Source: a virus. From it: a stretch of DNA of 64,000 bases. The notes beneath the pieces were generated by a model, which had not been told where the DNA came from, made no database searches, and worked only from the letters and a program-made list of their open reading frames with translations. A program made the translations under genes and the position numbers. Numbering within the stretch: the stretch's first letter is position 1; the number at the start of each line of letters is the position of its first letter. Below are positions 17,254 through 31,148 of the stretch, piece by piece. Where the stretch lies: positions 1 through 64,000 of the IMG/VR virus record IMGVR_UViG_3300031857_000149. One strand, 5' to 3'.

Positions 17254-18693
17254 TCACATAAGGTTAGCAACTTGTACTCTTCTGTAGTAACGGTTGCTGT
17301 TAACCTTGAGGCGTCCGAGACCCTGGTTGGTGGCATCGCCTTCTGCGAATGGGTTTGCAACCAAACCATAACGAGTCTTAAACCCGATTTTTGGCTGGAA
17401 GCTATTCTCACCAACCGCACGAACCATCTGAAGAGGAACGTATGGGCAGTAGAATAGACCTGCATCATAAGGAGAAGAACCCTTATAACCAACAACGTAG
17501 TACTGACCGCCACCAGCTCCGGGGTTAGAACCACCCGAATATGGGTCGATGTATACGCGGTACTTACCTTGAAGAATACCAGCAAAAGTATTGCCGCTAT
17601 CATCAACCTGAAGGTTTGCGTTGAGTGCAGGGGTGTAATCAAGAACGCCTGCCATGGTGAGTGCCGAAGCAACGTCAGCCGAGCAGAGGATCATGTTGCC
17701 CTTTCCTCTACGAGTTTCAGTTGCGATTGCGTTTGCATCGCGCTCGATTTGGAAGATAAGTCCTTTGAACTTCTCAACCGACCAACGACCGTTGGAGTCA
17801 ACGTCGAGGTCAAACTTACCAGCAGTTGCAACGTTGTGCTGCGCACCTGACTTAGCAGTCTTGTAGATGGTTCTGATAACTTCGCGGTTGATTTCAGCAA
17901 GAATCTCGGTTGAGAGAATGTTTGCTAATTCCGCTTCAGCATTCAGACCGTGGATTGCCTTGAGGTCTTGTGCGAGCTCTAGTGAGTACTCAGCCTTGAG
18001 TGCTCTTGACTTTGCGGTAACAGTGACTTTCTCGATTGAGAATGCCATTTGGTTGAACTGATCTCCACCAGTTGCACCAAGTGCTTCCGAGTCATCAGTT
18101 CTCATACCTTGCCCAGTAGTATATGCTGCCTGGGTGGTGTTTGAATCTGGGCTTAGGAGACCTGGATTTGTACCTGCCTGACGTGCAGTGGTTCCAAGAC
18201 CAACTGAAGCACCATCAGAACCATCAACATAAAGACCGGATTCGTTATCAAATCCACTGTCTTGACCGGACCATGAAGAATCAACTTCATTGAAGAACGC
18301 TTCAGTTCCTGACTGTGAACCGTAACGTGAACGCATTGCGAAGATCAGTCCAGTAGGACCATTCATTGGCTGAACGCCAGCGAGATCATAAGCAACTAGG
18401 TTAGGCATTGAACGTCTAATCAATGAGATTAGAACGGGATCAAAACCGGCAACAGGACCAGCGCCATTAGCGCCACCTGAGAAACCAGCACCGTAACCAC
18501 CGGCACCAGTTTGGGTATTCATATTTGGAGTTTCATAGAGGAACTCACGCTCTTCACGTAGTTCTCTCTCTTGGTTCTCTAGCAGGATAGCGGTTACCGA
18601 TCTACGATGTGAATCTCTGATTGGATCGAGACCTTGATAGTCAAGGATTGGTGCCCACTTCTCCTGCAATTGTTCTGCATTGAACATTTGCAT
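17254..18693 (-). CDS. gp23: Major capsid protein gp23
   Basis: Main head subunit, 479 residues, of the T4-like cyanophage size class (T4: 521). Recognisable segments are EKWAPILDYQGLDPI near the N-terminus, the RRSMPNLVAYDLAGVQPMNG block, VTAKSRALKAEYSLELAQDL, and the C-terminal GLVANPFAEGDATNQGLG. A candidate gp21 cleavage tripeptide L-Y-E sits at 52-54, where T4 gp23 loses 65 residues. Flanked by a strong terminator and an atypical promoter; codon use is more GC-rich than in the neighbouring tail genes, as is common for a highly expressed capsid gene. Confidence 0.97.
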   Translation of the reverse strand: MQMFNAEQLQEKWAPILDYQGLDPIRDSHRRSVTAILLENQERELREEREFLYETPNMNTQTGAGGYGAGFSGGANGAGPVAGFDPVLISLIRRSMPNLVAYDLAGVQPMNGPTGLIFAMRSRYGSQSGTEAFFNEVDSSWSGQDSGFDNESGLYVDGSDGASVGLGTTARQAGTNPGLLSPDSNTTQAAYTTGQGMRTDDSEALGATGGDQFNQMAFSIEKVTVTAKSRALKAEYSLELAQDLKAIHGLNAEAELANILSTEILAEINREVIRTIYKTAKSGAQHNVATAGKFDLDVDSNGRWSVEKFKGLIFQIERDANAIATETRRGKGNMILCSADVASALTMAGVLDYTPALNANLQVDDSGNTFAGILQGKYRVYIDPYSGGSNPGAGGGQYYVVGYKGSSPYDAGLFYCPYVPLQMVRAVGENSFQPKIGFKTRYGLVANPFAEGDATNQGLGRLKVNSNRYYRRVQVANLM

Positions 18694-18741: not shown

Positions 18742-19932
18742 TCACTTATTAGAAAATTTACTGAGCAATGAAAGATAGCTCTCCATTCTTCCACTCACTT
18801 GTGGAGCCTCGGAGTAGTTTGCCTCTTCTGATAAATTCTCAGTAACATCTCTTTGAGCACTAGGTGCTTTAGTTGGGAAATAAGATTCCCTTAAAGTTAC
18901 TAGTTTCTCACGATAGTTGTCTTCACTATCAAACTCAACATTTTCAGCAAGAGAAGCGAGTTTGTCCTTCTGAGAAAGTGCAAGACCCTCAGCGACGGTT
19001 GCAAAAATTACATCAGAAACTGACTCTGCTAATCTTCTATTAAGAGCAACATTCTTTTCGATTTGCTCGTTGAGTTTTCCTTCCATTTCATCAAGTTTAT
19101 CTACCATACTCTCAATTACATCATATCTATCTTCAGGGATTGTTACATAATGATCTTCAAAAAGACTCTTCATTCCTTGGAGGAATGATTCGGTCATTTC
19201 AGTCTTAAGACCGTGCTCGATAGCAATTGCATTTTCTGAAATCCATTCATCAGCAACATACTCAAGGTATGCATCAACTCTATCAACTAGAGATTCTTTA
19301 ATTGCTTCGATTTCTTCTACAAGTGCTTGCTCGTATGAAGATTGGAGAGATTCTTTGATCTCTGCAACCTTTGCATTAATTGCTGTTTCAAAAATTACAC
19401 GGGCTTTTTCTTGGAACTCTTCTGAGAGTTCTTCACCTTCTAGAAGAGCATTGACATCTTCTTCGATGTCATACTCTTCTTTCTTCATTTCGCCTTCTTC
19501 ATCTTCATCTTTTTCATGACCTTTACCTTCCTTCTTTTCACCCTTTTCCTTTTTACCTTCTTTATGAGGAACTTCGACAGGCTCTTCGCCATCCTTTTCC
19601 TCTTTACCATACTCTCCTTCGGAAAGGAGATCTTCGTCATCCAGTTCTTCCTCTTCCTTTACAGGTGAAGCCATAGACTTCATAGGTTCGGCTGGTTTTG
19701 CGCCCTTGGTAACAACATCTTTAACTTGAGAAAGAGTTGCTCCAGGTTCCTTAAGTTTTGCAGGACCCTCGGGATCATTTGTATAATTTTCGGGAGTTGG
19801 ACCACCTAAATCTTCCCAATTACCAGTTTGACCAGCAGGAATACCCGTGGTTAATTTTGGCATTGGTTCTGCAGCGGCGGCTCCTTTGGTTACTACGTTT
19901 TCCATTTCTTGTAAATTGCTACCAACGGACAT
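18742..19932 (-). CDS. gp22: Prohead core scaffold protein gp22
   Basis: Forms the internal scaffold of the prohead and is degraded by gp21. 396 residues against 269 in T4; the extra length is an N-terminal, highly charged region (Glu/Lys blocks at about 90-155). The C-terminal half is helical and coiled-coil, with VDKLDEMEGKLNEQIEKN and VIFATVAEGLALSQKDKL, typical of gp22. Residues 13-24 (VVTKGAAAAEPM) are repeated at 73-84 (VVTKGAKPAEPM). Position between gp21 and gp23 fixes the assignment. Late promoter TATAAATA lies 31 nt upstream. Confidence 0.93.
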   Translation of the reverse strand: MSVGSNLQEMENVVTKGAAAAEPMPKLTTGIPAGQTGNWEDLGGPTPENYTNDPEGPAKLKEPGATLSQVKDVVTKGAKPAEPMKSMASPVKEEEELDDEDLLSEGEYGKEEKDGEEPVEVPHKEGKKEKGEKKEGKGHEKDEDEEGEMKKEEYDIEEDVNALLEGEELSEEFQEKARVIFETAINAKVAEIKESLQSSYEQALVEEIEAIKESLVDRVDAYLEYVADEWISENAIAIEHGLKTEMTESFLQGMKSLFEDHYVTIPEDRYDVIESMVDKLDEMEGKLNEQIEKNVALNRRLAESVSDVIFATVAEGLALSQKDKLASLAENVEFDSEDNYREKLVTLRESYFPTKAPSAQRDVTENLSEEANYSEAPQVSGRMESYLSLLSKFSNK

Positions 19933-19972: not shown

Positions 19973-20623
19973 TTAAAGATTTGCTAAGAAATCTTGAAAT
20001 AATTGAATCTTATGTTCTTGTAAAGTACTTTCATCTACAAGAGTATTAATTCTGCGTTTTGTTTGCTCTGCGAGTCTTTCACGAAGAATTCCTCCTTCCC
20101 AAACCCACTCCTTACCTTCCATAATTCCCTGAACAAAAGCATCAGGTGCAGAAGGATCAGCAACAATGTCAGCAGCAGTTGCCAACATAAAGTCTTCACC
20201 AACAACTTTATGACCCTCATTGGTCATCTTAAGTGATCCAACACCACGGGAAGAAACGCCAAGGCAAACACCTTCACCGATAAGAGATTTTGCAATCTTA
20301 CCCATTGGGGTTTCAAGAAGTTGTGCTTTACCTCTAAAGTTTGTTCCATTTTGTTCTAATGAAACAATTTTATGAGAAACACGGTCAAGATTGACGGTAG
20401 GACCATCTGGGTGACCAAGTTCTCCAAGAGCACGACCCTTTGCAACGAAAGCTTCGTTATATCTCTTTACCTCGCGGGTAAGAGTTTCCATAGGATACAT
20501 TCTACCATTACGGTTGCAAATATCACCTTGAAGGAAAACTCCCTCAATATACATTTTCTTTTCGGAACCCTTACCTTCGGTGATAAACTTAACTTGTGAT
20601 ACTTCTTCTGTGATGAGTTTCAT
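19973..20623 (-). CDS. gp21: Prohead maturation protease gp21
   Basis: Serine protease that cleaves scaffold and capsid proteins after (L/I)-x-E-type sites. 216 residues (T4: 212). Catalytic candidates are H71 in GELGHP and S124/S125 in GVSSRGVGSL; YIEGVFLQGDICNRNGRMYP at 25-44 also matches T4 gp21. The order gp21-gp22-gp23 is as in T4. Its own N-terminus contains ITE tripeptides that would allow self-cleavage. Confidence 0.96.
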   Translation of the reverse strand: MKLITEEVSQVKFITEGKGSEKKMYIEGVFLQGDICNRNGRMYPMETLTREVKRYNEAFVAKGRALGELGHPDGPTVNLDRVSHKIVSLEQNGTNFRGKAQLLETPMGKIAKSLIGEGVCLGVSSRGVGSLKMTNEGHKVVGEDFMLATAADIVADPSAPDAFVQGIMEGKEWVWEGGILRERLAEQTKRRINTLVDESTLQEHKIQLFQDFLANL

Positions 20624-25683: not shown

Positions 25684-27333
25684 CTAGAGATAATCCCACA
25701 TATAACTTTTATCACCATATTCATCAACATACCACCTATCACCGTCTTGGTCTATAAAGCTTGTTATATCGCTTACGCCATCAGAAATAAATCCAAATGG
25801 TGACATATCTTGATCTATTTGATTTTTTTGTTCTTCATATATTCTTTTCCTAACATCATTATCAGTCATCTCCTTAAAATAATCCTGAGCTACAATCCAG
25901 GAAAAGATAACCAAACACATTGCCAAGTCATCATTACATCCTTCCTCAGCTTCAAAGGAATTGTGTTTTTGTGCAAAAGTTGTTAATTCACTGATGATAT
26001 CATAATCACATAATAATAACTTATCATCTTCTAGTAGTGTTTTTAAGTTGGAGCATCCTAGTTTTTTTACTGCGGCAGTCATTCGAACGCCTAATTGAGA
26101 TTTTTTACCACTAAATCCAGAACCAACAATTTGACCCGCACGTCCTCTCATAGCGCACATCAAAATATTATCATATTCCAAATCAAAATGAAGAATACTT
26201 GCAACTTGATCTCCAATATCATTAACTTCAATTAGCATCCACGCATCATTATATCCTCTTCCAACTTCATAAATTATGCTTGGAAAAAGCATCGGTTTAA
26301 TTTCATTATTTCTATATTTTGCGACAATTTTATATGGGAATTCTGTGATATCAAAAACGACAAAAGCAGAATAATCATTACCTAACCCGCGAGCAACGTC
26401 GACTGTTACCAGATAATTATGCTCTTCCTTCGGATGTTCATAAACATCAAGACCTGCATTTCTTTTTATTGGATCTTCATATACCAGATTTCTCAATTTT
26501 GATGCATTAATAAGAGTATTGACAGATCCAAGAAATTCGCATTCAAATTCTACTTTGAATTGTTGTTCATTGGTGTTGGCAATCGTCTGAGCCTTCCACT
26601 CCTCATCTCTACCAGGCACTTCTGACCAGTGGACATCTGTAGGCACATATTCGTTTTTACCACGCTCAGAATCGTGCCACATTCGGTAGAAGTGGTTCAT
26701 ACCCCTTGGGGTAGAAACAATAATTACCTTTGTGCTTTGACCTGATGAAATCGTTGGATATACCGAAGCAAAAAAGTCATCGGCAATATGATTTGGGATG
26801 AATGCAAATTCGTCCAAGAATATAATGTTATAAGATCCACCACGAACTGCTGATGCTGATGTTGATGCTGCAATAATCTTAGAACCATTCTCTAATTCTA
26901 ATGAACCTTTATTCCAAGATAGAATTCCTTGTTGCATCCATCTGGGTAAATTCTCATATGCTAGTTGTAATCTTTGTAGTAAATCTCTTGCGGTTGATGC
27001 CTTGTTAGCAAGAATTGCTATATTTACATTATCATTGAATACTGCATAATGTAAAAGATATGATACACAGGTAGTTGATTTACCTGTTTGACGCGGCATT
27101 TTACAGATATTAAATCTATAGTCGTGGAAATTTTTAATCAACTTCTCTTGAAACGGATACATCCTAAATGGTTGCAATCCGTGATCAAGAGTAACAATCT
27201 TTATATAATTTCTGGCAAAGTAGACTGGATCATCCTTACATTTAAGAAACTCAAGAATTTGATCTTCAGTAAATTGGATTGGTGTATTTGCCTTTTTTAA
27301 ATTGGGATTACCAAGATATATGCTATCAGACAT
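25684..27333 (-). CDS. gp17: Terminase large subunit gp17
   Basis: Packaging motor ATPase and nuclease. 549 residues (T4: 610). ATPase Walker A MPRQTGKST at 79-87, Walker B IIFLDEFAF at 170-178, coupling motif VSTPRG at about 207-212. The nuclease domain starts at VTVDVARGLGNDYSAFVVFD with D312 as first metal ligand; a later CNDDLAMCLV carries the C-terminal acidic pair. No late promoter lies directly upstream; it follows the 435-aa gene by 5 bp and is likely co-transcribed with it. Confidence 0.97.
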   Translation of the reverse strand: MSDSIYLGNPNLKKANTPIQFTEDQILEFLKCKDDPVYFARNYIKIVTLDHGLQPFRMYPFQEKLIKNFHDYRFNICKMPRQTGKSTTCVSYLLHYAVFNDNVNIAILANKASTARDLLQRLQLAYENLPRWMQQGILSWNKGSLELENGSKIIAASTSASAVRGGSYNIIFLDEFAFIPNHIADDFFASVYPTISSGQSTKVIIVSTPRGMNHFYRMWHDSERGKNEYVPTDVHWSEVPGRDEEWKAQTIANTNEQQFKVEFECEFLGSVNTLINASKLRNLVYEDPIKRNAGLDVYEHPKEEHNYLVTVDVARGLGNDYSAFVVFDITEFPYKIVAKYRNNEIKPMLFPSIIYEVGRGYNDAWMLIEVNDIGDQVASILHFDLEYDNILMCAMRGRAGQIVGSGFSGKKSQLGVRMTAAVKKLGCSNLKTLLEDDKLLLCDYDIISELTTFAQKHNSFEAEEGCNDDLAMCLVIFSWIVAQDYFKEMTDNDVRKRIYEEQKNQIDQDMSPFGFISDGVSDITSFIDQDGDRWYVDEYGDKSYMWDYL

Positions 27334-27338
27334 AAAAA

Positions 27339-28646
27339 TTACCTACTAATTTCTTCCCAGTCCATAGAAGCAACTGCGGTATTGCCATTATTATTTGTGG
27401 CAACAACAAGAGTGAGTTCAAAGGGTGTTAATGTTAGTCCATTTCTTTCCAACTGAAACTTAAAGAGTGCTTCTTTGAGAATATCAATTTGAGTTGTTCC
27501 TTGATTTGAAGCACTAAAAAATCCACTTCCAAGTATTCTTCCACCAGCATAAGAAGTTCCAGTAATGTTATACTCCACAGCACTATCATCACCAGCACTT
27601 ACCCAAGTTCCTCCAGTAGTAGTTCCAGATGCTCTAATCTGCCAATTATAAGCACCTGTAGCAATTGGCATTACTGAAAGTGCCGTGAGAATTACAATTG
27701 CATCCAAATAATTTGGCGATGCCTTAAGACGCAAACTAATGATAGGATAAAAAGTTCCTGCAGTTGTTAAAGTTCTTGGTGTGGTGATTGGTATTCCTGT
27801 TGCCTGCTGTATTCCGCGAAGTTCATAACCACCTTCAGAAACTACAGAAGAACAAACTTGTTTCATTGTGCTTGAACTTGTAGTAATTCCAGTATTAGTA
27901 ATCTCATATCTTACTGGAAGTGATGCTGTCGTAATATAAGTCGATTCAATTATATTTGCGTGATGAAATGAATGACAATGAATAAACTTTCCATCAATTA
28001 CAAAACCCATTCTTACTGTTCCAAGTCCTAACCATTCAATATCCATCCATAAGATTTGTGCTTTGGATAGATTTAAGGTAATACCAGAAACACCAGTTCC
28101 ATCCAACTTATCAATATTCCAACTTGACTGAGCAACCTTTGTTTCAGACGCAGTTGATAAACTTCTTTCTACAAAATATGCAGTATTCCCATCAACTTCA
28201 AAATACATTCCATTATCAGCACCAAAATATCCAACTCTTTGACGAAGATTTGTTTTTGGTGCATTCATCACAAATGTATTCAATACCAACAAAGATTTTC
28301 CTGGTTGATATGAGAATGTTTTTGTGGTTTCTCTAATTACAGAACAACCAGCAGTAGTTCCAATACCTATGCTAATCAAACCTTGTGTGGTTACAAATCC
28401 AACTGTAGAACCAGTTCCTACAACTAAACTACTCCAGAGATTATTGTCCCTATATCTGTGAGAACTATCAAAAAGTGTTAATGGATTTGATACTCTAGTT
28501 CTTCCAAATGCATCTGAATTTATGCTAACTGGAAACCTATTGAGTTCATCTACAACCTCACCATCTCTGGTTGCAATTAAAGGTACTTCAAAGAGACTTC
28601 TCTCTTGATTGAGAAAGTCTTGTGTATTCTTATTCCATTGTGCCAT
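27339..28646 (-). CDS. Probable virion structural protein (435 aa)
   Basis: 435 residues, no firm family. It opens QDFLNQERSLFEVPLIATRD, then RTRVSNPLTLFDSSHRY, a start seen in structural proteins of many phages. The body is Ser/Thr/Gly-rich and beta-strand-like, with isolated charged patches (MDIEWLGLGTVRMGFVIDGK), as in carbohydrate-binding or fibre proteins. Lying between gp17 and the cargo-like genes in a late cluster, it is probably a decoration or tail-associated protein. Receptor binding is speculation. Confidence 0.7.
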   Translation of the reverse strand: MAQWNKNTQDFLNQERSLFEVPLIATRDGEVVDELNRFPVSINSDAFGRTRVSNPLTLFDSSHRYRDNNLWSSLVVGTGSTVGFVTTQGLISIGIGTTAGCSVIRETTKTFSYQPGKSLLVLNTFVMNAPKTNLRQRVGYFGADNGMYFEVDGNTAYFVERSLSTASETKVAQSSWNIDKLDGTGVSGITLNLSKAQILWMDIEWLGLGTVRMGFVIDGKFIHCHSFHHANIIESTYITTASLPVRYEITNTGITTSSSTMKQVCSSVVSEGGYELRGIQQATGIPITTPRTLTTAGTFYPIISLRLKASPNYLDAIVILTALSVMPIATGAYNWQIRASGTTTGGTWVSAGDDSAVEYNITGTSYAGGRILGSGFFSASNQGTTQIDILKEALFKFQLERNGLTLTPFELTLVVATNNNGNTAVASMDWEEISR

Positions 28647-28648
28647 AA

Positions 28649-28963
28649 TTAATCAGTCCAAGTTAATCTTTCTGGTTGGTATCTTTGTGAGTTCTTGATT
28701 TTTAAAGAACTAGTTATGTGTGGATAAATGTTATGAACAATCGCTCCAGGATATTCACCCTGAAGTTGTTCGGCAAGTTGATTTTTATCCATCATCTTAC
28801 CCTCAACTTCTAATCTATACAATCTCCCTTGCCACACTACATCGGCAATGAAAGATTCTCCAACTGCTTCTGGTTGATTATCTGAATCATTGATGTACAG
28901 ATTGCCGTTAAAATCGCCGGCAATATTAATACTTTCTGAAATAAATTGCTTGAAGGATTTCAT
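28649..28963 (-). CDS. Putative capsid-targeted internal protein (104 aa)
   Basis: 104 residues from ATG 28963, which is 1 bp after the stop of the 581-aa gene; the longer reading from 29083 only overlaps that gene. It begins MKSFKQFISESI, strikingly like the T4 internal-protein targeting sequence MKTYQEFIAE, including an I-S-E tripeptide that gp21 could cut. The rest is a small alpha/beta domain (FIADVVWQGRLYRLEVEGKM, NQLAEQLQGEYPGAIVHNIY). Inference: co-packaged with DNA and released after cleavage. Its function after that is unknown. Confidence 0.72.
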   Translation of the reverse strand: MKSFKQFISESINIAGDFNGNLYINDSDNQPEAVGESFIADVVWQGRLYRLEVEGKMMDKNQLAEQLQGEYPGAIVHNIYPHITSSLKIKNSQRYQPERLTWTD

Positions 28964-28964
28964 T

Positions 28965-30710
28965 TTAGTTACAGTTCCACTTTCTAAGAGATAATGCTTT
29001 TCTTGTTGGGCGACCTTTTTCATCTTCCATAGGACCAGGCATCCCTCCCATACGAGCACAGAATGATTTTCTACGCTTCGCATCTTTAGATCCTGGTTTC
29101 AATTTTGATGGTTCAGTTGTAACGGCAGTTTGCAATTTTGAACCAGGATTTTCTTTTCTATACGATGCAACTCCTGCAGCATTTAAACCGCCCTCTGGGT
29201 TCTTACCTTCCTTTCTTTGCCAGGTAGGAGACGCTTCTGACATAAATCTCATAAATGACTTCCCTTCTCCAAGCATCCTGCTACCAATACCTCTGGATGG
29301 TTTTAGTGGTTCTGGTTTGATGATATCAATAAATTCTGCATAATGATTACCATTAGCATCTTCAATCGAAACTGATTCTGGGACACAATTGGGAACAATT
29401 TTTTTACCCTTCTTCTTCATACCAACTTTTTTATATCCTGCCCAACACGCTTCTTTAACGTTATGTTCTCCGCCATCGATATAATCTGCAGCTGTATCAA
29501 TATAATCTGCCGCTTTGGTAATTTTTGATTGAACCCACGCTTCAATATTACCTTCACCTTTTAATTTTCCACGAAGTCTTTTTGCAGCAGAAATAATTGT
29601 AGATAATTCAGAACGAGCCATAGAATATTCGTGGTCTGGTTCCTTAGATTCATTTGCAGGATGAACCTGTGCAATATCATATTTCATTTGATTTGTGGTT
29701 AATACTGATGGTGTCGAATACATTGCCCAAAACTTAGGACCATATTTGCACTCAATTGAAAGTTCATCTTTTCGGCATTTTGGGCAGTATCTTTTTTCAT
29801 TATCATAAATTGGTCCTTCCCAATTAGGTAACCAATCGGTTGATTCGGATTTTGTTCCCCAATTAGCAGCACCAACCTTACGACATTTGACAAGTGCTCC
29901 AGAAGCATATGCACTTGGCCAAACATCATATCTTGATTTTACTTTGTTATAGCAAGCATCTTTTTTACCACTACTCTTGCCTTTAGCATCTTTTTCTTCG
30001 TTCATTTTTCTTTTTGGTTTATCAGTAGAAACGTAAGTCGGTTTTGCCGCACCAGATTTTTCTGGTTGATTTGGGTCTGCGGCACTTTTTCTTCTTTGTG
30101 CGGATATTCTTTCCTTCGTTGTCATACTCGCTCTTTTGTCTGAAGAAACGCACTTAGGTGTTTCATCTTCTTCACCTTCTTCGCGGGCGCAAGGTTCTCC
30201 GGAGATTACTTCAACCCAACCAGGCTTTCCTCCTTTTGATTTGGACCCCTTAAACCATTGATGAAGAGTACCTTCGTTTAATTTTTTAATCCAAACGTCT
30301 GGTGTTCTCTTGTGCTTTTCGACGAAAGAATTATGTAATTCTTTTGCCGTCATATTATGTTTTTTCATTATACGGCGCATCAATTTATCAATTGAATTAT
30401 ACGAAATATCGTTTAATTTTTTCAATTGATCTTCAAGTTCTTTGACCGCATCATTAAAATTTACATTCACATCTTTAAATTTATTATGATGTTTCTTTGC
30501 ATCTGCCTCCATTTTTTTGAGGCGAGTGTAATAATCTGGAATTTCATCTAGATGCTGAAGAGCAATTTTAACTGCTAATTTTTGATCCTTTGTGTGCTCA
30601 TGTTCAATTGGGGCACCCATATCGAGTTGTTTCTGAATAAAAGAAACTTCGAGACGATGCTTTTTGGCAATCTCTTCCACGCTATTATATGGCTTTAATT
30701 GCTCATTCAT
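28965..30710 (-). CDS. Multi-module Cys/Lys-rich protein, DUF5661 and DUF6321-like (581 aa)
   Basis: A mosaic of small modules. Residues 8-70: DUF5661-like, ending KIALQHLDEIPDYYTRLKKM. 150-195: QWFKGSKSKGGKPGWVEV then GEPCAREEGE. 250-285: DACYNKVKSRYDVWPSAYAS then GALVKCRKVGAANWG. 309-321: CPKCRKDELSIEC, zinc-ribbon-like. 363-413: helical block with EAWVQSKITKAADYIDTAAD. 421-444: ACWAGYKKVGMKKKGKK then IVPNCVPE. 485-492: KSFMRFMSEA, an internal copy of a capsid-targeting-like motif. 495-580: DUF6321-like, ending RRKSFCARMGGMPGP...TRKALSLRKWNC. These modules recur in cyanophages. Function unknown. Confidence 0.75.
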   Translation of the reverse strand: MNEQLKPYNSVEEIAKKHRLEVSFIQKQLDMGAPIEHEHTKDQKLAVKIALQHLDEIPDYYTRLKKMEADAKKHHNKFKDVNVNFNDAVKELEDQLKKLNDISYNSIDKLMRRIMKKHNMTAKELHNSFVEKHKRTPDVWIKKLNEGTLHQWFKGSKSKGGKPGWVEVISGEPCAREEGEEDETPKCVSSDKRASMTTKERISAQRRKSAADPNQPEKSGAAKPTYVSTDKPKRKMNEEKDAKGKSSGKKDACYNKVKSRYDVWPSAYASGALVKCRKVGAANWGTKSESTDWLPNWEGPIYDNEKRYCPKCRKDELSIECKYGPKFWAMYSTPSVLTTNQMKYDIAQVHPANESKEPDHEYSMARSELSTIISAAKRLRGKLKGEGNIEAWVQSKITKAADYIDTAADYIDGGEHNVKEACWAGYKKVGMKKKGKKIVPNCVPESVSIEDANGNHYAEFIDIIKPEPLKPSRGIGSRMLGEGKSFMRFMSEASPTWQRKEGKNPEGGLNAAGVASYRKENPGSKLQTAVTTEPSKLKPGSKDAKRRKSFCARMGGMPGPMEDEKGRPTRKALSLRKWNCN

Positions 30711-30725
30711 TGATAAAAAAATTTA

Positions 30726-31148
30726 TTACTCTTTATTATTTAGAAAACCTTGCTTAAGTAATTTTGATAGTTCTGATGTGGACCCAACAAATAGGGCATT
30801 ATTTGTGACATTATTTGTTGTTTTTATTGAGGTATCCTCAACGTCTTTCAATTTCTTTTGCAAATCTATAAGTTTATCTGTTGTATCTGCGACACTCTTT
30901 ATTAACTGTCCTGCAACTTCATATGCTCTAGGACTTCCACCTTCGCCAGCAAGTTCCATAATTCCATTAATTGCCTCCTGACCCTTTTCAATTAATGAAT
31001 ACAAATTAGCTCTTGTGTATTCATAATCTTTTTTAATATCATTAGAAATAGTATTTTCGTTTGATAAAATCTCACATTCTTCCTGCTCCACCTCAACAAT
31101 AGAACCAGAAATATTAAGTGCTTCATCTATGCTTTCAAAGTTACTCAT
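30726..31148 (-). CDS. gp16: Terminase small subunit gp16
   Basis: DNA-recognition subunit of the packaging terminase. 140 residues (T4: 164). It shares with T4 gp16 the DDYxxxRxN-type segment KKDYEYTRANLYSLIEKGQE, the SPRAYEVAGQLIKSVADTTD helix pair, and the end NNALFVGSTSELSKLL (T4: NATVFMGSPTELMDE). It precedes gp15 as in T4, but is separated from gp17 by three extra genes. Confidence 0.92.
   Translation of the reverse strand: MSNFESIDEALNISGSIVEVEQEECEILSNENTISNDIKKDYEYTRANLYSLIEKGQEAINGIMELAGEGGSPRAYEVAGQLIKSVADTTDKLIDLQKKLKDVEDTSIKTTNNVTNNALFVGSTSELSKLLKQGFLNNKE
30737..30744 (-). promoter_or_regulatory. Late promoter element TCTAAATA
   Basis: TAAATA-core element 27 nt upstream of the 581-aa gene, inside the last codons of gp16. 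Confidence 0.5.

Follow-up and report, generated by a model that had tools for sequence, protein, structure and literature searches.

A probable T4-type capsid-targeting tag on a small cyanophage protein encoded between gp16 and gp17, and on many unrelated proteins of T4-like environmental phages

If a small phage protein opens with the sequence that targets T4 internal proteins to the capsid, then it may be loaded into the prohead, cut by the prohead protease, and delivered to the host together with the DNA. This question is raised by a 104-aa ORF in the window analysed here, which comprises 64,000 nucleotides of a 64.8-kb virus record from a T4-like cyanophage (IMGVR_UViG_3300031857_000149; Table 1). 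The ORF runs on the minus strand from an ATG at 28963 to a stop at 28649, and its product, MKSFKQFISESINIAGDFNGN... (104 aa), begins with MKSFKQFISES, exactly as the sequence-only reading had stated. Homologues start at precisely the same Met, which supports the start codon. Proteins of this type occur in 135 annotated phage records, cyanomyoviruses in every case, and the closest annotated relative is that of the freshwater Synechococcus phage S-SRM01 (76% identity). Pfam and PADLOC searches of the protein gave no match, and a sequence search of solved structures returned weak chance matches only.

Table 1. Features of the window that bear on the 104-aa protein.
Feature	Position	Strand	Basis
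104-aa protein, phrog_1742 (function unknown)	28649..28963	-	ORF call and PHROG family match
T4-type capsid-targeting tag MKSFKQFISE (putative), residues 1-10; predicted gp21 cut after Glu10	28934..28963	-	T4 comparison, conservation, profile
Beta-beta-alpha-beta domain, about residues 36-81 of the 104-aa protein	28721..28858	-	AlphaFold, confident; nearest solved fold T7 Gp2 / RNAP epsilon, a match at fold level alone
581-aa basic mosaic protein, DUF5661 and DUF6321	28965..30710	-	Domain match
Internal tag-like segment, residues 483-494 of the mosaic protein, just before DUF6321	29229..29264	-	Profile score 15.5
gp16 terminase small subunit	30726..31148	-	Family/domain match
Virion structural protein (phrog_1645), downstream neighbour of the 104-aa gene	27339..28646	-	PHROG match
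gp17 terminase large subunit	25684..27333	-	Family/domain match
gp21 prohead protease (Peptidase_S77), expected tag-cleaving enzyme	19973..20623	-	PF03420, 2.1e-35
gp22 prohead core scaffold, expected tag-binding partner	18742..19932	-	T4_CASP, 4.2e-79
Predicted gp23 propeptide junction FLYE/T (slash, cut), residues 51-54, motif class of the tag junction	18532..18543	-	Sequence comparison

A single base separates the ATG of the 104-aa gene from the stop of the upstream gene for the mosaic protein, and the neighbourhood is that of terminase and cargo-like genes described earlier, with gp16, the mosaic protein, a structural protein, and gp17 around the 104-aa gene. The order of gp16, one or more variable genes, and the 104-aa gene is the same in S-SRM01, S-SKS1, S-CAM9, S-SCSM1, Syn33, S-B05, and DSL-LC03. 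Downstream of the 104-aa gene, these seven phages have a gene that is structural or uncharacterised, and gp17 comes after it; S-CAM9 and Syn33 have extra genes ahead of gp17, and the annotation of S-SRM01 is altered here. Published work describes the interval between gp16 and gp17 as a hot spot for gene content in cyanophages (PMC3037559), and it holds three mutually unrelated tagged proteins in different phages. S-PRM1 gp011 (L008:8736-9362), an unrelated protein of 208 aa in the same interval, starts with MKTYNQFVLEA, which is nearly the T4 tag. For Syn33_106 (L006:19989-20001), the annotated GTG start is four codons too early, and the conserved Met is at 20001.

The resemblance of the start to the T4 targeting sequence holds residue by residue against MKTYQEFIAE, with which both IPII and IPIII begin in the T4 genome record; IPI begins with MKTFKEF. 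The leader of T4 Alt has a sequence different from this type of tag. Similar to the T4 internal proteins, the 104-aa protein is small, its leader has the same length, position, and pattern (M-K-[ST]-[FY]-x-[QE]-F-[ILM]-x-E), and its genome encodes the cognate protease and scaffold families. In contrast to them, it has no detected similarity in its mature part, its gene sits between gp16 and gp17, and its packaging, cleavage, and injection are predictions. Judged from its sequence, it probably joins the known class of T4 capsid-targeted internal proteins.

Suppressor-mutant work in T4 assigned targeting mainly to residues 4 and 7, and processing to residues 8 and 10 (PMC9026906). Residues [FY]4, F7, [ILM]8, and E10 are conserved across 87 members of the 104-aa family, a set recruited by two peptide patterns of which one is the tag itself; therefore, the seven loci found by whole-protein similarity are the unbiased part, and these carry the same motif. 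The ratio of nonsynonymous to synonymous codon differences in the family is 0.64 in the tag versus 2.29 in the linker (residues 23-36). Residues 12-22 are conserved to the same degree as the tag, and the predicted cut site is thus inside a conserved block that reaches residue 22, with no visible break there. The AlphaFold model has low confidence over residues 1-34 and places a short helix at residues 4-9.

A tag profile was trained on environmental tags with the 104-aa family left out. By this profile, whose training N-termini were picked by pattern and whose score therefore repeats the constraints of that pattern, the start of the 104-aa protein scores 26.6 and the runner-up among the window's 571 possible minus-strand starts scores 4.9. 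In two cyanophages, just 7 of the 115,816 positions inside proteins score 6 or more. Over 50 kb of T4, which like the proteome sequences tested below lay outside the training set, the profile recovered IPI, IPII, and IPIII and nothing else. The tag match is far beyond chance.

The tag is not confined to this family. IMG/VR was scanned with the pattern MKxF..F[hydrophobic].E and with a control in which the second Phe was shifted by one residue. Matches lay at ORF starts in 116/120 cases for the pattern versus 44/120 for the respaced control (p about 2e-25), which is the N-terminal excess that the sequence-only reading had put forward as a test. These DNA scans used codon-fixed patterns, so AT-rich codons were favoured. 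A second scan fixed only M-K-S-F-x-x-F and left residues 8-10 free; among the 80 matches listed, Glu10 was present at 29/47 ORF starts versus 2/22 in the control (p=6e-5), against a Glu background of 5.6% in those proteins, and Gln6 and Lys5 were also enriched at ORF starts. Clustering of the tagged ORFs gave about 90-99 groups, between which no sequence similarity was detected outside the tag. Pfam domains on 87 cluster representatives include nucleotidyltransferases (7), adenylate and other P-loop kinases, S-adenosylmethionine lyase, and RimK, as well as HD_4, DnaJ, SET, GNAT, HAD phosphatase, DUF6267, DUF6321, DUF5661, and others. The tag is therefore modular and is used on many unrelated proteins in T4-like environmental phages.

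Further forms and carriers were observed. A second tag form, MKSF[KS]QFx-E-[ET] (L265, L289, L311, L315), has its Glu at position 9 and no fixed residue at position 8, and is found on nucleotidyltransferases and a CWKGW-module protein, among others. Other tagged proteins (L110:1223-1783, L042:10526-11047, and L054:3736-4152) comprise one protein with an HD domain, similar to (p)ppGpp hydrolases, and two whose YHGT starts are, by eye, reminiscent of ADP-ribosyltransferases; it is possible that these are packaged host-takeover enzymes. Weakly tagged short ORFs lie right after gp23 at L002:32033 (MKSFQQFQED) and L010:27203 (MKSFNQFCKD). The expectation that tagged genes would cluster near head genes held in part in S-CREM2, where one lies between gp16 and gp17 but the others are near 4-13 kb and 125 kb.

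The mosaic protein encoded immediately upstream of the 104-aa gene has a virion-detected homologue in S-SCSM1 and contains an internal tag-like segment, GKSFMRFMSEAS. Because this segment precedes DUF6321, which elsewhere is a separate tagged protein (L097, L154), the mosaic protein looks, from its domain order, like a fusion of tagged cargo. The window copy has no excess of [IL]-x-E sites (3 observed, 4.6 expected), so the internal tag is the one observation that suggests a gp21-cut polyprotein.

The prohead machinery that the tag would require is encoded in the window. The proposal that ISE fits the (L/I)-x-E rule of gp21 agrees with the motif itself, with the presence of gp21, and with the gp23 propeptide junctions, which are mostly of the same class. 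The tag junction is FISE/S in the 104-aa protein and F[ILM][ST]E/S in its family. Likely gp23 junctions in the source and related phages are FLYE/T, FLSE/A, FLAE/A, ILNE/T, and LLTE/A, i.e., mostly [FIL]L[SYANT]E/[AT]; that of S-B05 (LMETP) fits the class less well, and that of S-CAM9 was left undecided since its annotation starts too late. Across environmental contigs, an S77 protease was present in 6/24 tagged versus 1/24 control contigs (p=0.10), and in 3/4 tagged versus 0/7 control contigs of at least 80 kb (p=0.02); counted together with a T4-type portal, it likewise occurred in 6/24 tagged and 1/24 control contigs. This co-occurrence is supportive but weak, because the contigs are fragments.

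Published virion proteomes link the tag to virion proteins. The S-CREM2 virion list includes 52/219 proteins, some of which may be co-purified according to its authors (PMC10665884). Five S-CREM2 proteins are tagged, namely gp6 SAM hydrolase (MKDFDSFLEE), gp13 (MKDLHSFLTE), gp14 APH-like kinase (MKRFDAFLTE), gp136 (MQTFSMFFSE), and gp154 cytidylyltransferase (MKNFSSFLTE); the virion list contains all five of them, and none of the S-CREM2 proteins missing from it scores as tagged. S-SCSM1 has two tagged proteins, of which the NMNAT (MKSFLQFLKE) is virion-detected and S-SCSM1_30 (MKTFKQFMSE), the homologue of the 104-aa protein, is absent from the virion list although both of its neighbours are present (PMC9602691). 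Pooled over the two phages, 6/7 tagged proteins are virion-detected versus 100/501 (20%) of proteins overall (p=3e-4). Similarly, the S-SM1 cytidylyltransferase T4-GC190 has been reported as a virion protein (PMC3037559); it starts with MKKFSAFLNE and is the sole tagged ORF within the 49 kb examined. In tblastn searches, the S-SCSM1 NMNAT aligns with jumbo Escherichia phages from near residue 100, past the leader, and with many cyanophage homologues already from residue 1. Additionally, S-CREM2 gp12 (L011:7704-10313, minus strand), Cas9/Csn1-like by annotation and present in virions, has F..FMAEAA at residues 16-27, slightly inside its annotated start.

The 104-aa protein thus shares its tag with the S-CREM2 SAM hydrolase, APH-like kinase, and cytidylyltransferase, the S-SCSM1 NMNAT, and the S-SM1 cytidylyltransferase, each of which was detected by mass spectrometry in purified virions (PMC10665884, PMC9602691, PMC3037559). 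Unlike these enzymes, it shows no catalytic domain that can be recognised, and the single homologue of it covered by proteomics went undetected. This non-detection is the main evidence against packaging of the 104-aa protein. Just two of the tryptic peptides of S-SCSM1_30 have a convenient length, yet that study did detect four shorter S-SCSM1 proteins (61-93 aa).

We consider it likely (probability about 0.78) that residues 1-10 are a T4-type capsid-targeting sequence and that the 104-aa protein is loaded into the prohead, cut by gp21 after Glu10, and most likely delivered with the DNA. During head assembly, Phe4 and Phe7 would dock the new protein on the gp22 scaffold core, around which the prohead would close. 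Cleavage by gp21 after Ile8-Ser9-Glu10 would then free a 94-residue protein inside the head, comprising a flexible arm and a small folded domain, and this mature protein would most likely travel with the DNA into the cyanobacterium at infection. For the 104-aa protein itself, we infer docking, cleavage, and delivery. The conservation and modularity of the tag, its match to T4 internal proteins, the gp21 and gp22 genes, and the association with virion proteins are observed; targeting and cleavage are well supported because of the conserved residues, the protease and scaffold, the gp23 junctions, the modularity, and the virion-proteome association. Delivery into the host is plausible. The earlier proposal of a packaged and injected protein is sustained in part, by inference, as regards prohead targeting and gp21 cleavage, and the missing S-SCSM1_30 weighs against it.

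The strongest alternative accepts the tag as a real scaffold-binding signal on a prohead core or packaging factor, comparable to gp67/gp68 or to IPIII in its morphogenetic role, which acts or is degraded in the head and is not delivered. The gene is highly conserved and keeps its position between gp16 and gp17 across diverse cyanomyoviruses, the non-detection of S-SCSM1_30 fits degradation or a low copy number, and T4 IPIII also affects head morphology (PMC9026906). However, many tagged proteins are enzymes with host-directed chemistry (SAM lyase, nucleotidyltransferases), which argues for delivery as the usual outcome of the tag, and we regard an undelivered core factor as a serious but unlikely explanation.

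If the 104-aa protein is delivered, its folded domain bears on what it might do. In S-PRM1 and S-8S55, a recurrence of the domain close to the N-terminal end of the mosaic protein is detectable from sequence, and in S-SCSM1_29, a virion protein, the domain recurs at fold level. Its best PDB fold matches, with two separate models, are T7 Gp2 (4lk0_M) and RNAP epsilon YkzG (4njc), to which its small beta-beta-alpha-beta fold is similar by structure comparison, and several of its viral fold matches bear the name RNAP inhibitor. These matches raise the reading that the mature protein, with a Gp2/epsilon fold, is packaged, delivered at time zero like T4 Alt, and modulates the RNA polymerase of the host. 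Nevertheless, the match to 4lk0_M has a TM by target of 0.72/0.69 with a weak E of 0.04/0.08, on a fold that is small and simple. Homology to Gp2 by sequence was considered and rejected (hhalign probability 0.3%, no BLASTP alignment). Gp2 residues R56 and R58 contact the beta' jaw and are needed for RNAP binding (PMC3541766), whereas the aligned positions in the 104-aa family are not Arg. T7 Gp2 is made in the cell rather than packaged, and the 104-aa protein is predicted to be packaged. A role as an RNAP modulator is doubtful.

A further alternative casts the conserved N-terminus as a peptide that docks on another late protein, e.g., a neck or terminase component, with no capsid-targeting role. 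This would agree with the place of the gene among terminase and neck genes and with the unbroken conservation to residue 22, but the tag equals the experimentally mapped T4 signal and is also carried by unrelated virion enzymes encoded far from the terminase genes (NMNAT, SAM hydrolase, kinase), making such a peptide distinctly improbable. A chance resemblance of an amphipathic N-terminus to MKTYQEFIAE, conceivable for a short motif of which single examples prove little, is rejected statistically by the enrichment, Glu10, conservation, profile, and T4 tests and deserves very little credence.

Overall, the presence of the tag on many unrelated proteins, including virion-associated enzymes, is a more valuable result than the 104-aa protein alone. 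No report of capsid-targeting sequences in cyanophages was found in the open-access papers searched. At its most speculative, the tag may be a general label with which aquatic T4-like phages mark a large repertoire of mix-and-match, host-directed cargo, and the 104-aa protein a prepackaged Gp2/epsilon-fold effector acting on cyanobacterial RNAP from the first moment of infection; this combined proposal is a tentative and improbable one. The authors of a cyanophage virion proteome were unable to tell packaged from co-purified metabolic and regulatory enzymes (PMC10665884); because those enzymes share a T4 loading signal that is understood from experiments, the question becomes testable. The tag thereby offers a sequence rule for predicting, in abundant aquatic phages, the proteins that enter the host together with the DNA.
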